This document shows, one piece after another, positions 24,250 to 61,969 of a DNA stretch of 64,000 nt. The stretch covers positions 10,111,135 through 10,175,134 of the forward strand of contig NC_133782.1 in NCBI RefSeq assembly GCF_003597395.2. Direction: 5' to 3'. Origin of the DNA: Chelonoidis abingdonii (Eukaryota > Chordata > Testudines > Testudinidae). A program made the translations under genes and the position numbers. The notes below the pieces were generated by a model that saw only the letters and a list, made by a program, of their open reading frames with translations, was not told where the DNA came from and ran no database searches. The stretch's first letter is position 1. The number at the start of each line of letters is the position of its first letter.

Positions 24250-24257
24250 GTGTACAG

Positions 24258-24590
24258 CAGTGGTTCTCAAACTAGGTCTGCCACTTGTTCAGGGAAAGCT
24301 CCTGGCAGGACGGGCTGGCTTGTTTACCTGCTGCGTCCGCAGTTTTGGCCAATCGCAGCTCCCAATGGCCATGGTTCACCGCTTCAGGCCAACTGGGGCG
24401 GCGGGAACTAGTGGCCAGTACATCCCTCGGCCCGCGCCACTTGTTGCAGTCCCCATTGGCCTGGAGTGGCAAACTGCAGCCACTGGGAGCCACGATCGTC
24501 CAAACCTGGGGACACGGCAGGTAAACAAACCAGCCTGGCCCGCCAGGGGCTTTCCCTGAACAAGCGGCAGCCCTAGTTTGAGAACCACTG
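24258..24590. mobile_element. hAT-type MITE, almost a full-length palindrome
   Basis: The ends are exact inverted copies of 'cagtggttctcaaactagg', and the symmetry continues inward for roughly 90-150 bp per arm: 'ttgtttacctgc' on the left is matched by 'gcaggtaaacaaa' on the right. Target duplication is 'gtgtacag' (24250-24257) against 'gtgtagag' (24591-24598), 7/8. Because both arms encode the same frame, near-identical open frames appear on opposite strands; they are artefacts of the palindrome. Confidence 0.92.
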
Positions 24591-24598
24591 GTGTAGAG

Positions 24599-37351: not shown

Positions 37352-38468
37352 CAGGGGTGAAAGTAATTTAAAAGATTTACCGGTACTTCAGAGTCCTTAG
37401 GAGGGGGCGGGGCCTCAACAGAAGAGTCATGGCCTCTACCGGAAGAGGCAGTGCCTTGAAGTCCCCAGACACTTTAAATCAGGATTTAAAGGGCCCAGGG
37501 CTGCGGTTGTGGTAGCAGCAGCTGGGAGCCCCGGGCCCTTTAAATCACCTCCAGAGCTACCCGCTACAGAGGCCCCTGGGAGCCCCAGGGGTGATTTAAA
37601 GAGCCTGGAGCTCCAGCTGCTGCTACCGCAGCAGAGCCACGGGCACTTTAAATCACCATCAGAGGGGGGCCCAGTCTCTGGCGGAGCTTTAAAGGGCCTG
37701 GGACAGTAGTGGCAGCCAAGCCCCTGGCCCTTTAAATTGCCACCTGAGCCCTGCCGCCGCTACCTCAGGGCTTTGACAGGTTCCGGGGATGATTTAAAGG
37801 GCCCGGGGCGGTAGCAGCTGCCGGAGCCCTGGACCCTTTAAATTGTCCCTGGAGCTCTGCTGCTGGAGCCCGGGGCAGGCAGCAGCTTGGCTCCAGTGAC
37901 TATTTTAAGGGCCAGGGTGGTAGCTGCTACCGCAGCCCTAGACCCTTTAAATCGCCGCCTGAGCCCCACCACCGCTACCCCAGGGCTCCGGCAGGCTCCA
38001 GGAATGATTTAAAGGGCTGGGGCAGTAGCGGCTGCCACAGCCCTGGACCCTTTAAATAGCTGCCAGAGCCCCGCCACTGCAACCCCAGGGCTTCAACAGG
38101 CTCAGGGGATGATTTAAAGGGCTGGGGCAGTAGCAGCTACCAGAGCCTCGGACCCTTTAAATTGTCCCTGGAGCTCTGCTGCTGGAGCCCTGAGGAGGCA
38201 GCAGCTGGGCTCCAGTGGCTATTTTAAGGGCTGGGGCTGTAGCGGCTGCTGCAGCCTCAGATCCTTTAAATAGCTGCCGGATCCCCGCTGCCGCTACCTC
38301 AGGGCTCCGGGGATGATTTAAAGGGTCTGGGGTGGTAGCTGCGGCAGGCGCCCCATGCCCTTTAAATCGCCGCCCAAGCCCCGCTGCCGCTTCCCCAGGG
38401 CTCTGGCAGCAATTTAAAGGGCCCGGGGCTCCAGCGTACCAGAGCGTACCGGCTTACTTTCACCTCTG
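37352..38468. mobile_element. 1.1-kb hAT-type element with internal higher-order minisatellite
   Basis: The element begins 'caggggtgaaagtaattt' and ends 'gcttactttcacctctg', with inverted ends and an inner 'taccggtac' / 'gtaccgg' pair. Flanks 'cccagtag' (37344-37351) and 'cccagtgg' (38469-38476) match 7/8 and sit in the CR1 tail. The interior is an array of 'ccctttaaat' and 'atttaaaggg' words alternating every 40-65 bp. Units of about 105-107 bp (for example at 37791, 38006 and 38111) are grouped into a 319-bp higher-order unit: 'ggaccctttaaattgtccc' occurs at 37831 and again at 38150. No transposase is encoded. Confidence 0.88.
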
Positions 38469-40410: not shown

Positions 40411-40495
40411 GGCCCCAGTTCAGCAAAACATTTAAACATGTGCTTAACTTTAATGGGACTTAAGCACATGCTTAATGTTTTGCTGAATCAGGGCC
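40411..40495. repeat. 85-bp palindromic MITE
   Basis: 'ggccccagttcagcaaaac' mirrors 'gttttgctgaatcagggcc', and 'catgtgcttaac' mirrors 'ttaagcacatg', around the small loop 'tttaatggga'. The element is almost entirely stem and would fold into a hairpin. Flanking duplication could not be assigned. Confidence 0.75.
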
Positions 40496-42091: not shown

Positions 42092-42106
42092 TAGTACTGA
42101 AAGAGT

Positions 42107-42290
42107 ATCAGAGGGGTAGCCGTGTTAGTCTGGATCTGTAAAAGCAGCAGAGAATCCTGTGGCACCTTATAGACTAACAGACGTTTTGGAGCGTGAGCTT
42201 TCATCTGACGAAGTGGGTATTCACCCACGAAAGCTCACGCTCCAAAACGTCTGTTAGTCTATAAGGTGCCACAGGATTCTCTGCTGCTTT
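42107..42290. mobile_element. Penelope-like element tails arranged as a perfect foldback
   Basis: The element starts with 'atcagaggggtagccgtg' (just after the flanking repeat), the start of a short Penelope-related repeat I know from turtles. The 64-bp segment at 42139-42202 is then repeated as an exact reverse complement at 42229-42292, with 26 bp between them. The right arm matches the 3' end of the coding Penelope copy at 60453-60505 ('gtctgttagtctataagg', 'gccacaggattctctgctg'). So the unit is one forward and one reverse copy of the same terminal region. No protein is encoded. The exact symmetry implies a recent origin or ongoing arm correction. Confidence 0.88.
42205..42242 (+). ncRNA. 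Hammerhead-ribozyme-like motif in Penelope tail
   Basis: The plus strand shows a CTGACGA box (42205-42211; pattern CUGANGA), stem II 'gtgggt'/'acccac' (42213-42218 with 42223-42228, loop ATTC), a GAAA box (42229-42232), a 3-bp stem III 'agc'/'gct' (42232-42234 with 42239-42241, loop TCAC) and C at 42242 as the cleavage-site base. These are the hammerhead core parts in the right order, with the minimal stem III known from Penelope-type hammerheads. One extra A (42212) separates the core from stem II. Activity is not shown, and in this copy the perfect foldback would compete with the ribozyme fold. Confidence 0.6.
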
Positions 42291-42305
42291 TAGTACTGAA
42301 AGAGT

Positions 42306-51030: not shown

Positions 51031-51360
51031 CAGTGGTCCCCAACCTTTTTTGTCTGGTGGGCACCAGATGACAAGCCATAGAGGACCGTGGTGGTGGATG
51101 AGCATCTGCCAAAATTCTGCCGACAAGGGGCAATATCAATAGGCCTCACCGCCAAAATGCTGCCAACAAGTCGCATCATCCAGAAGCGTTGCTGCCAAAA
51201 TGCCACCCAAAATCGGCAGCATTTTGGCAGCAACACCTCCGGATGACACAGCTTGTCAGCAGCATTTTGGCGAATGCTCATCTACCAGCCAGTACGCGGG
51301 TGCACTTAGACGCCCTGGCAGGCACCATGGCACCCAAGGGCACAGCATTGGGGACCCCTG
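51031..51360. mobile_element. hAT-type MITE
   Basis: The 330-bp element starts 'cagtggtccccaacctttt' and ends 'gcattggggacccctg', which are inverted ends. Flanks 'ctctaggt' (51023-51030) and 'ctctcagt' (51361-51368) match 6/8. The interior has several 'gccaaaatgctgcc' and inverted 'ggcagcattttggc' words, making an internal palindrome cluster at 51110-51275. Confidence 0.85.
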
Positions 51361-59479: not shown

Positions 59480-59499
59480 TGTTATAATATGTAATATAA

Positions 59500-60349
59500 T
59501 TACAACCGCATCTGCTCTAACCCCTCAGACAGAGACCAACACCTACAAAATCTCCACCAAGCATTCTCAAAACTACAATACCCGCACGAGGAAATAAGGA
59601 AATAGATCAACAGAAGCCAGATGTGTACCCAGAAGCCTCCTACTATGCAAGACAACCCAAGAAGAAAACCCAACAGGCTCCACTGCGATCACATTAACAG
59701 CCCCAGCTTAAAACCCTCATCAACGCTCATCACGTCTACAACCCTTCCTGGACATGATCCCACACTTCACAGGGCTTGCGTGGCAGGCCAGTCTCGCCAC
59801 AGACAGCCTGCCAACTTGAAACTATTCCACCAGGCAACGCAACACCGCACCATAGTAACTCTAGCTTCAGGAACCCAATCCATGCACAAACCTCTGATGC
59901 AACTCTTGCCCAATATCTACACCAACGACACCATCACAGGACCTAACCAGATCAGCCACACCATCACCGGCTTCATTACCTGCACGTCCACCATGTTAAT
60001 ATATGCCAGCCAATGCCCCTCTGCTATGTACATCGGCCAAACTGGACAGTCTACGGAAAGATAAATGGACACAAATCATATCAGGAATGGCAATATTACA
60101 AAAAACCATGTAGGAGAGTTACTCAAACCTCCCTTTGCCCACTATAGCAGACCTTCAAGGTGGCCATCCTGCAGCAAAAACTTCAGGACAGACTTCAAAA
60201 GAAACTGCTGGCTTCAGTTCATCTGCAAATTTGACACCATCAGCTCAGGACTAAACAAAGACTGTGAATGGCTTGCCAATTACAGAACCAGTTTCTCCTC
60301 CCTTGGTTTTCACACCTCAACTGCTAGAACAGGGCCTCATCCTCCCTGA
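59500..60349 (+). pseudogene. Penelope GIY-YIG endonuclease region, broken
   Basis: The frame first reads 'NRICSNPSDRDQHLQNLHQA', the segment that usually follows the Penelope reverse transcriptase thumb. A frame from 59621 then gives a linker ('HTITGFITCTSTMLIYASQC') and the GIY-YIG signature, with LIY at about 59997-60005 and YIG at 60029-60037 ('AMYIGQTGQSTER'). A stop at 60062 cuts the domain where the catalytic Arg/His helix should continue; the conserved 'NGH' text survives in another frame. The next frame (60065-60349) holds the degraded C-terminus. It is not functional. Confidence 0.82.
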
Positions 60350-60425
60350 TTGAACTAACCTCGTTATCTCTAGCTTGCTTGCTAGCATGTATATACCTGC
60401 CCCTGGAAATTTCCACTACATGCAT

Positions 60426-60463
60426 CTGATGAAGTGGGTATTCATCCACAAAAGCTCATGCTC
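60426..60463 (+). ncRNA. Decayed hammerhead-ribozyme-like motif in Penelope tail
   Basis: The same order as at 42205: CTGATGA (60426-60432), stem II 'gtgggt'/'atccac' (60434-60439 with 60444-60449, one wobble), stem III 'agc'/'gct' with loop TCAT (60453-60462) and C at 60463. The G of the required GAAA box is A here (60450), a change expected to abolish cleavage. The extra A before stem II (60433) is present as in the other copy, so it is a family trait. Confidence 0.6.
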
Positions 60464-60517
60464 TAAAACGTCTGTTAGTCTATAAGGTGCCACAGGATTC
60501 TCTGCTGTTATAATATG

Positions 60518-61237
60518 GTGATTATAGTTCAATTTAATCAACTCCCTGCATGAGTTCCTCAACTTGTTTTTATAGGTTTACTCAAAGCTGCAAGCCTCAA
60601 TTAAAACAAATTTGACTAGCTGTCCAAACCACTCCAAAATCACATCTTTATTTGCTCCTGTTGATTTGGCATCTGACCTTATTAAAGTGGATGGCTGCAT
60701 GTCAAAATTGGCACTAAAAGTATAATAATTTTCCCTATTAAGAGAGCCCCCCCAAGGAAAGCCATGTGCTGAAAGCAGTTTTAGGAAAGACAGGTGGTGG
60801 ACTTGCATCCTGCCACATGTGTGCTGGGTTTGGGAACAAGTCCCCAAATAAAGTGTAGCCATATTTTTCTTGAGTACCAGAGTCGAACCTTGTTTAACTC
60901 TCTGTATACCCCCATAATGCTAACTCTTTGGATTAAAGCCTTGGATGGAGCCATAGCAACACCTCTATTACGTTTATTTAATTGTAATTCCTCCACCCCC
61001 ATCCCCCCCCACACACACACTATCTATGTAGGCTAACATTTTCTGTTGTGATCTCTGCTTTTGGTGAAATACGGGCCACATCCTGAGAGCTAATGGGCAA
61101 CCATAAATGGTTATTTACCTGAACCAGAACAGGATACAAAAAACCCCAAAGTTCAAGTGAGAGGATTTTAAATCTGGATACAAGTTCTCATGCAGGCATG
61201 TGTGCATATACACTAACATTTACAAGCATGTGTGTGT
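60518..61237. other. Unique sequence, no gene seen
   Basis: No gene or repeat was recognised. A C-run followed by a short CA run lies near 61000-61020. Confidence 0.45.
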
Positions 61238-61263: not shown

Positions 61264-61969
61264 TATCCGTTTTGATTCAGCTTCTAGGACTCCTAATACA
61301 GACCTAGACCAAATGTCAATGACACTAAAATTCCACACCTCAGTAACCTCCTTTGTGGTGATTCAGATACTTACAAGGCTAGCTAAAACAAAATCACAAT
61401 TCCTGCCCTGCCAATGTCATCTGGCACATTGAGTCATTAATTTTTAGCGTCCACTAATATTATTTATTCATTGTGGTGCTTAAGGGCCCAAGTCGTTGAC
61501 CAGGACTCCATTGTCATAGATGCTGGAACAATCAGTTAAGCATCATGCCATTGCTGAATGTAATGTTTTGGGTACTGTTAAAATATCTTAGGCACCTCTT
61601 AAGGAAATGGTACTATAAGAAATGTCAGTCAAGAGCATCACTTTTTTTGGTTTAGAGATATCTATTAAGAATTCTAGTAATCACTGAACAGAGCAGACCT
61701 CCTTCCACAGCTCTAATAACATATGTTATAGCGGTATATAATGTCAGAAGTTGTGTGAATTCTCTGCTGCTTTTCATAATATGCTAAAACATGGTTTTAC
61801 ACTGACTCTGGTCACTTCCAGAAAGAAAATAATGTATAAATCATAAAAAGAAAAGTGGCTTTAAAATGTATTCCTTGATCTAGTCCCCATCACTAAATTG
61901 AACTTCAGTGTCTGGCTAGGTAAATATGTTCTTTTACATGCTACTGTAAATTGCTCACTTCAATGCTAC
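61264..61969. other. Unique sequence, no gene seen
   Basis: No gene or clear repeat. The word 'attctctgctgctttt' at 61759 matches the Penelope tail but is isolated. Confidence 0.4.

Follow-up and report, generated by a model that had tools for sequence, protein, structure and literature searches.

What kind of event leaves two facing copies of the same transposon end at one genomic site? In a 64,000-nucleotide stretch of the genome of Chelonoidis abingdonii (part of contig NC_133782.1; hereafter the window), two inverted copies of a Penelope 3' region lie head to head, with their 5' sides facing, inside a single pair of direct repeats. This foldback is a real, single-event Penelope insertion whose two halves differ in an informative way: it is reduced to a minimum, two arms each of which has an end absent from the other, an outcome that a simple model of an element copying itself does not give. 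In published work on the integration of Penelope-like elements, the later steps are called unvalidated (PMC11167929) and inverted ends are ascribed to self-priming on antisense RNA (PMC3846280). The asymmetry of the foldback fits the two-strand extension seen in vitro, and its small size suggests how the copy arose.

Layout and Penelope origin of the foldback

The unit measures 184 bp (42107-42290) and sits between exact 15-bp duplications; its arms are identical at 64 of 64 positions, inverted, and 26 nt apart (Table 1). The initial annotation had described this pair within its direct repeat, and the description holds throughout 42092-42305. In a scan of the whole window for exact inverted repeats of at least 20 nt with copy starts within 2 kb of each other, it is the sole one longer than 22 nt among the six listed. 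The right arm and the right duplication overlap by 2 nt (TA), so the boundary of the unit is ambiguous by 2 nt, and base 42202 (C) can be assigned to either arm. At the inner junction the arms meet directly, sharing no more than 1 nt. One pair of duplications lies outside both arms and no duplication lies between them, in agreement with the earlier view that the structure integrated in one event.

Nothing separates the arms except the 26 nt that belong to the right one, and neither an ORF nor direct pLTRs are present there. The 184-bp unit as a whole also contains no ORF, and for this reason we class it as a truncated product of the Penelope machinery rather than as an element. Folded as RNA, the unit reaches -135.8 kcal/mol, whereas its shuffles average -50.55 (z = -18.49) and none of 200 folds as well.

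Table 1. Positions in the window of the parts of the foldback and of the Penelope copy used for comparison
Feature	Positions	Strand	Details
Target-site duplication of the foldback, left copy, TAGTACTGAAAGAGT	42092-42106	no strand	15/15 against 42291-42305
Tail, outer end of the left arm only	42107-42138	-	32 nt; 34 including shared TA
Left arm, antisense copy of Penelope 3' region	42139-42202	-	64/64 with right arm
Inner extension, right arm only	42203-42228	+	26 nt; continues the match to 60423-60507
Hammerhead-like core	42205-42242	+	CTGACGA, extra A, 6-bp stem with 4-nt loop, GAAA, AGC/GCT stem, TC
Right arm, sense copy of Penelope 3' region, tailless end	42229-42292	+	64/64 with left arm
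Target-site duplication of the foldback, right copy, TAGTACTGAAAGAGT	42291-42305	no strand	exact match to left copy
Target-site duplication of the comparison copy (12 bp), left, TGTTATAATATG	59480-59491	no strand	2/2000 left-flank shuffles share at least 12 with the right
Comparison copy, Penelope fragment with GIY-YIG-like region, tailless end	59492-60507	+	5'-truncated, frame-broken
Target-site duplication of the comparison copy (12 bp), right	60506-60517	no strand	2 nt (TG) shared with element end

Sequence comparison supports the derivation of the arms from a Penelope 3' region, as had been proposed: the right arm is identical at 80 of 85 positions, in the same orientation, to 60423-60507, where a Penelope fragment that contains a GIY-YIG-like frame has its 3' end. 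At all five differences the foldback has C or G and the fragment has T or A (three of the five are at CpG), a pattern that makes the fragment look more decayed than the foldback. This comparison copy had been taken for a coding copy at 60.5 kb, which it is not: it is truncated at its 5' side, its frame is broken, its endonuclease region is broken, and it contains no intact ORF with reverse transcriptase and GIY-YIG. Its longest open frame is 152 aa and is identical at 39 of 67 positions to a Malaclemys terrapin protein (P0001), the sole one of five candidates at E up to 0.001. The terrapin protein in turn matches GIY-YIG (E = 0.00028) with 21.6 bits, below the Pfam cut-off of 22.6, and a Pfam search of the 152-aa frame itself gave no match.

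The tail had likewise been described as of the same type as that of the comparison copy. However, the comparison copy stops 4-8 nt before the end of the right arm, a range set by the bases that element ends and duplications have in common, and the outer 32-34 nt of the left arm are missing from it. The perfection of the arms is weak ground for the idea that they are recent or correct each other. We count no differences in 79 pairs (64 of the arms and 15 of the duplications), which places pairwise divergence below 3.7% (95%); such a bound does not prove recency, and arm-to-arm correction or gene conversion is not required.

Unequal ends and the hairpin of the arms

The arms are not simple mirror copies of each other, and the initial annotation needs correction on this point. 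In sense orientation, the 96 nt of the left arm extend from GAAAGCTC to CTCTGAT, and the 91 nt of the right arm from CATCTGACG to GCTTTTA. They have 64 nt in common; the stretch private to the left arm is the outer 32 nt (34 when the TA shared with the duplication is counted), and that private to the right arm is the inner 26 nt. The 32-nt tail is absent from the right flank, where its best ungapped match is 13 of 32, a value equalled by 74% of 500 shuffles. By hand count, 21 of its 32 nucleotides are A or C. Given private ends on both sides, neither arm can simply have been copied from the other, and snapback copying of one arm is ruled out in its simple form. The private ends imply that both arms were copied from element RNA or DNA, with different starts and different stops.

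At its inner end the left arm halts at the foot of a stem-II-like hairpin, which forms part of a hammerhead-like core. This core has a stem II and a short stem III, with one extra base after CUGANGA. When both strands of 60 mononucleotide-shuffled windows were scanned for the arrangement, it turned up in 0 of the 120 scans. Its GAAA reads AAAA in the 60.5 kb copy. The hairpin (GUGGGU/ACCCAC) is present in both the minimum-energy and the centroid fold of the right arm, and single-arm folds are no better than those of shuffles (right arm z = 0.36). No stem I pairing could be seen by eye. At gathering thresholds Rfam returned nothing for the whole window, hammerhead included, and no hammerhead match was found in the foldback unit or in 60300-60600 at E up to 10. 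Since neither a stem I nor an Rfam match was found, we do not claim an active hammerhead ribozyme. A microRNA precursor was also considered and rejected: a permissive search gave 23 Rfam matches in the unit, nearly all to microRNA families and all below gathering (the best, MIR4374, scored 74.2 against a gathering value of 105), and any long hairpin gives such matches.

Proposed two-sided priming and its alternatives

We favour, with moderate confidence, an origin of the foldback by two-sided target-primed reverse transcription in which one strand started at a distal and the other at a proximal site, and the cDNA ends were then joined. A Penelope-like protein would cut both target strands with a 15-nt stagger, and both target 3' ends would prime reverse transcription on element RNA. 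From the bottom strand, the primer would start at the proximal internal site (...CTGCTTT/TA) and copy through stem II to about CATCTG, yielding the sense arm without a tail. From the top strand, the primer would start at the distal site 32-34 nt downstream (...CTCTGAT) and halt at the foot of stem II, yielding the antisense arm with the tail; this cDNA would end at the G of GAAA, where the predicted 6-bp hairpin GUGGGU/ACCCAC has its foot. The two cDNA ends, sharing no more than 1 nt, would then be joined with their 5' sides facing, and gap filling would produce the 15-bp duplication.

Several features of the locus bear on this proposal. The 15-nt duplication implies staggered cuts, with both 3' ends carrying the duplicated bases. 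At the top 3' end (...AAAGAGT) the sequence continues with the complement of ...CCCCTCTGAT, which would be cDNA begun at the distal site; at the bottom 3' end (...AGTACTA) it continues with the complement of ...CTGCTGCTTT, which would be cDNA begun at the proximal site. The duplications, the identity of the arms, their orientation, their private ends and the halt of the left arm at the hairpin foot can all be read directly from the sequence. We infer that the two strands primed separately, on one RNA or on two, and that their ends were joined afterwards; on a single RNA, the 64-nt overlap of the cDNAs would need strand displacement, the alternative being two RNAs. In favour of two-sided priming, the right arm ends within 4-8 nt of the end of an independent copy (60507) that has a 12-bp duplication of its own, and the left arm is 32-34 nt longer, near published tail lengths. 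Against it, this is a single locus, in a window with two Penelope insertions where the distal start is seen once; both right ends have 2 nt in common with their duplications (TA and TG), and an offset of 4-8 nt separates the two ends called “proximal”. A perfect 9-bp helix between arm and tail near the proximal start is weak, being equalled in 19 of 2000 shuffles and in 70 of 2000 random 96-mers from the window.

The closest biochemical precedent is the Penelope protein of Anolis carolinensis (Poseidon), which cleaves and extends both target strands in vitro (PMC11167929). As described there, reverse transcription begins inside the RNA at two adjacent sites, and an optional genomic tail of 30-40 bp corresponds to the sequence between these start sites. 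No difference in start site was found between top and bottom strands, a result that predicts that both sites are usable, not that the strands differ (PMC11167929). According to the same study, the start sites are not homologous to the cut DNA, the hammerhead is dispensable for insertion in vitro, and products were mapped strand by strand, with joined two-sided inserts not demonstrated. The equal use of start sites by the two strands and the lack of homology both count against our reading of the foldback. The foldback resembles the Anolis system in that both strands appear to be extended, in its two apparent starts separated by the tail, and in a tail that is AC-rich in both. It differs in being a joined genomic insertion with differing starts, where the Anolis products were obtained per strand in vitro, and in that 2 nt may be shared with the target.

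We tentatively extend the proposal to Penelope-like elements at large, which may insert by two-sided priming with each strand independently using one of two internal RNA sites; we regard this as possible rather than probable. If true, such an independent two-site rule would explain head-to-head pLTRs, the one-sided tail and the target-site duplications, and it would need neither an antisense template nor self-priming.

A first alternative comes from LINE-1 elements. In LINE-1 twin priming, which starts at the poly(A) end, a second strand primes internally on the RNA that is being copied from its 3' end, and the inverted part lies within one pair of duplications, as it does in the foldback. The product would be similar in outline, with its 5' part inverted, duplications on the outside and a shared 2-nt TA at the internal start, and the scheme differs from two-sided priming only by its single RNA and its primer-matched internal site. 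However, ordinary twin-primed copies divide one RNA between two cDNAs, whereas the cDNAs of the foldback overlap, the 64 nt present in both arms having been copied twice, and start at or near Penelope-type ends. In addition, no more than 4-8 nt separate the would-be internal site from the position (60507) where the independent copy ends, which argues for a preferred start rather than a chance primer match. We consider twin priming unlikely here.

In the self-priming model of PMC3846280, antisense element RNA folds back at its 3' end and copies itself, and the hairpin product is inserted. Head-to-head arms would be expected from such a process, and a loop longer on one side would be natural. 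That study argues for self-priming from palindromes at inverted junctions, and in our case the hairpin-forming stem GTGGGT/ACCCAC does adjoin the junction. However, the arm with the 26-nt inner extension, which would have to be the template, is tailless, and the would-be copy is tailed. A copy cannot gain 32 nt that its template lacks, so self-priming would need an added later loss. Moreover, when the + strand is folded, the 10 nt that separate the foot of the hairpin from the junction stay unpaired, so the supposed self-priming end would not be annealed. The asymmetry of the foldback speaks against simple self-priming at this site, where we judge it quite unlikely; one locus does not refute the model generally.

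The initial annotation had suggested a short non-autonomous family that uses the Penelope machinery. For a mobile foldback family of this kind, the hairpin would have been joined beforehand in a source copy, transcribed as one RNA and inserted by the Penelope protein, which fits the duplication and the internal initiation at the right end. In addition, other sequences have been moved in trans between pLTRs, with duplications, according to PMC3846280. Against such a family, the window holds one 184-bp unit and no second, and the left end of the foldback would have to coincide with the 5' end of an RNA at what appears to be a start site. Searches of viral, prokaryote, phage and plasmid collections, the viral and phage ones by protein as well as by DNA, found no further copies, and such collections say nothing about copy number. 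We find this explanation very unlikely; a single two-sided insertion accounts for the structure, and no family need be invoked.

Finally, two separate insertions are ruled out by the one outer pair of duplications that brackets both arms, which abut with at most 1 nt shared and so leave no room for an inner duplication. The assembly might also have added an inverted duplicate of one arm, as such errors do arise, but a hairpin of this origin would mirror its flank and could not supply a 32-nt tail absent from both the other arm and the flank. Taken together, separate insertions and an assembly artefact are hardly credible.

Known inverted layouts and other repeats in the window

The foldback is a reduced variant of the head-to-head inverted pLTR-with-tail layout already known for Penelope-like elements. 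In PMC3846280, a typical element has its ORF flanked by two pLTRs, with an inverted pLTR next to them and a target duplication of 9 bp. This typical structure (Pen2a_Av, from Adineta vaga) is said there to occur in fruit flies and fish too, and head-to-head is given as the commonest inverted arrangement. One inverted pLTR carries a 31-bp tail, the inverted copy is 37 bp shorter than the direct one and overlaps it by 15 bp, and pLTRs are also found around non-Penelope sequence (PMC3846280). PMC8969392 likewise mentions inverted pLTRs, as well as individual copies with short 3' extensions.

Like Pen2a_Av, the foldback has inverted terminal copies head to head with a target-site duplication outside them. 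Its inverted copy is also shorter, by 26 nt at the inner end (37 bp in Pen2a_Av, at an end that the passage leaves unstated), and one arm only is tailed, by 32-34 nt as against 31 bp. The two differ in that the foldback lacks both an ORF and a direct pLTR, so that only the two arms are left, in the length of the duplication (15 bp versus 9 bp), and in the overlap at the junction (at most 1 nt versus 15 bp).

MITEs and DNA-transposon foldbacks also place an inverted repeat between duplications. The present foldback differs from these in that its arms are not terminal, the tail lying outside one of them, in its unequal ends, and in its 15-bp duplication. Among the open-licence papers surveyed we found none in which an ORF-less head-to-head pair serves as an argument for two-sided priming, and none that prints any of four words taken from the sequence.

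Other matches and repeats were recorded alongside the foldback. At 61759-61774, an exact 16-nt match to the element (ATTCTCTGCTGCTTTT) ends near the proximal start site, with no adjoining element match listed; it is possibly a very short insertion, chance being likelier (blast E = 0.011). When viral contigs were searched by protein, four stretches matched a pattern and none was confirmed. In one viral contig (L001:2045-2061), 21 nt match the Penelope tail exactly (antisense AGGGGTAGCCGTGTTAGTCTG), with nothing else of the element seen by eye in 301 bases. Within the window, 24253-24595 is a 343-bp imperfect palindrome, 77% identical to its own reverse complement, which starts with TACAGCAGTGGTTCTCAAAC and ends with GTTTGAGAACCACTGGTGTA and looks MITE-type. 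A GC-rich tandem array at 37688-38310 has periods of 105 and 319 bp, inner inverted repeats and TTTAAAGGGC motifs. Two further imperfect palindromes, at 51150-51272 (123 bp) and 40411-40495 (85 bp), are 78-79% identical to their own reverse complements.
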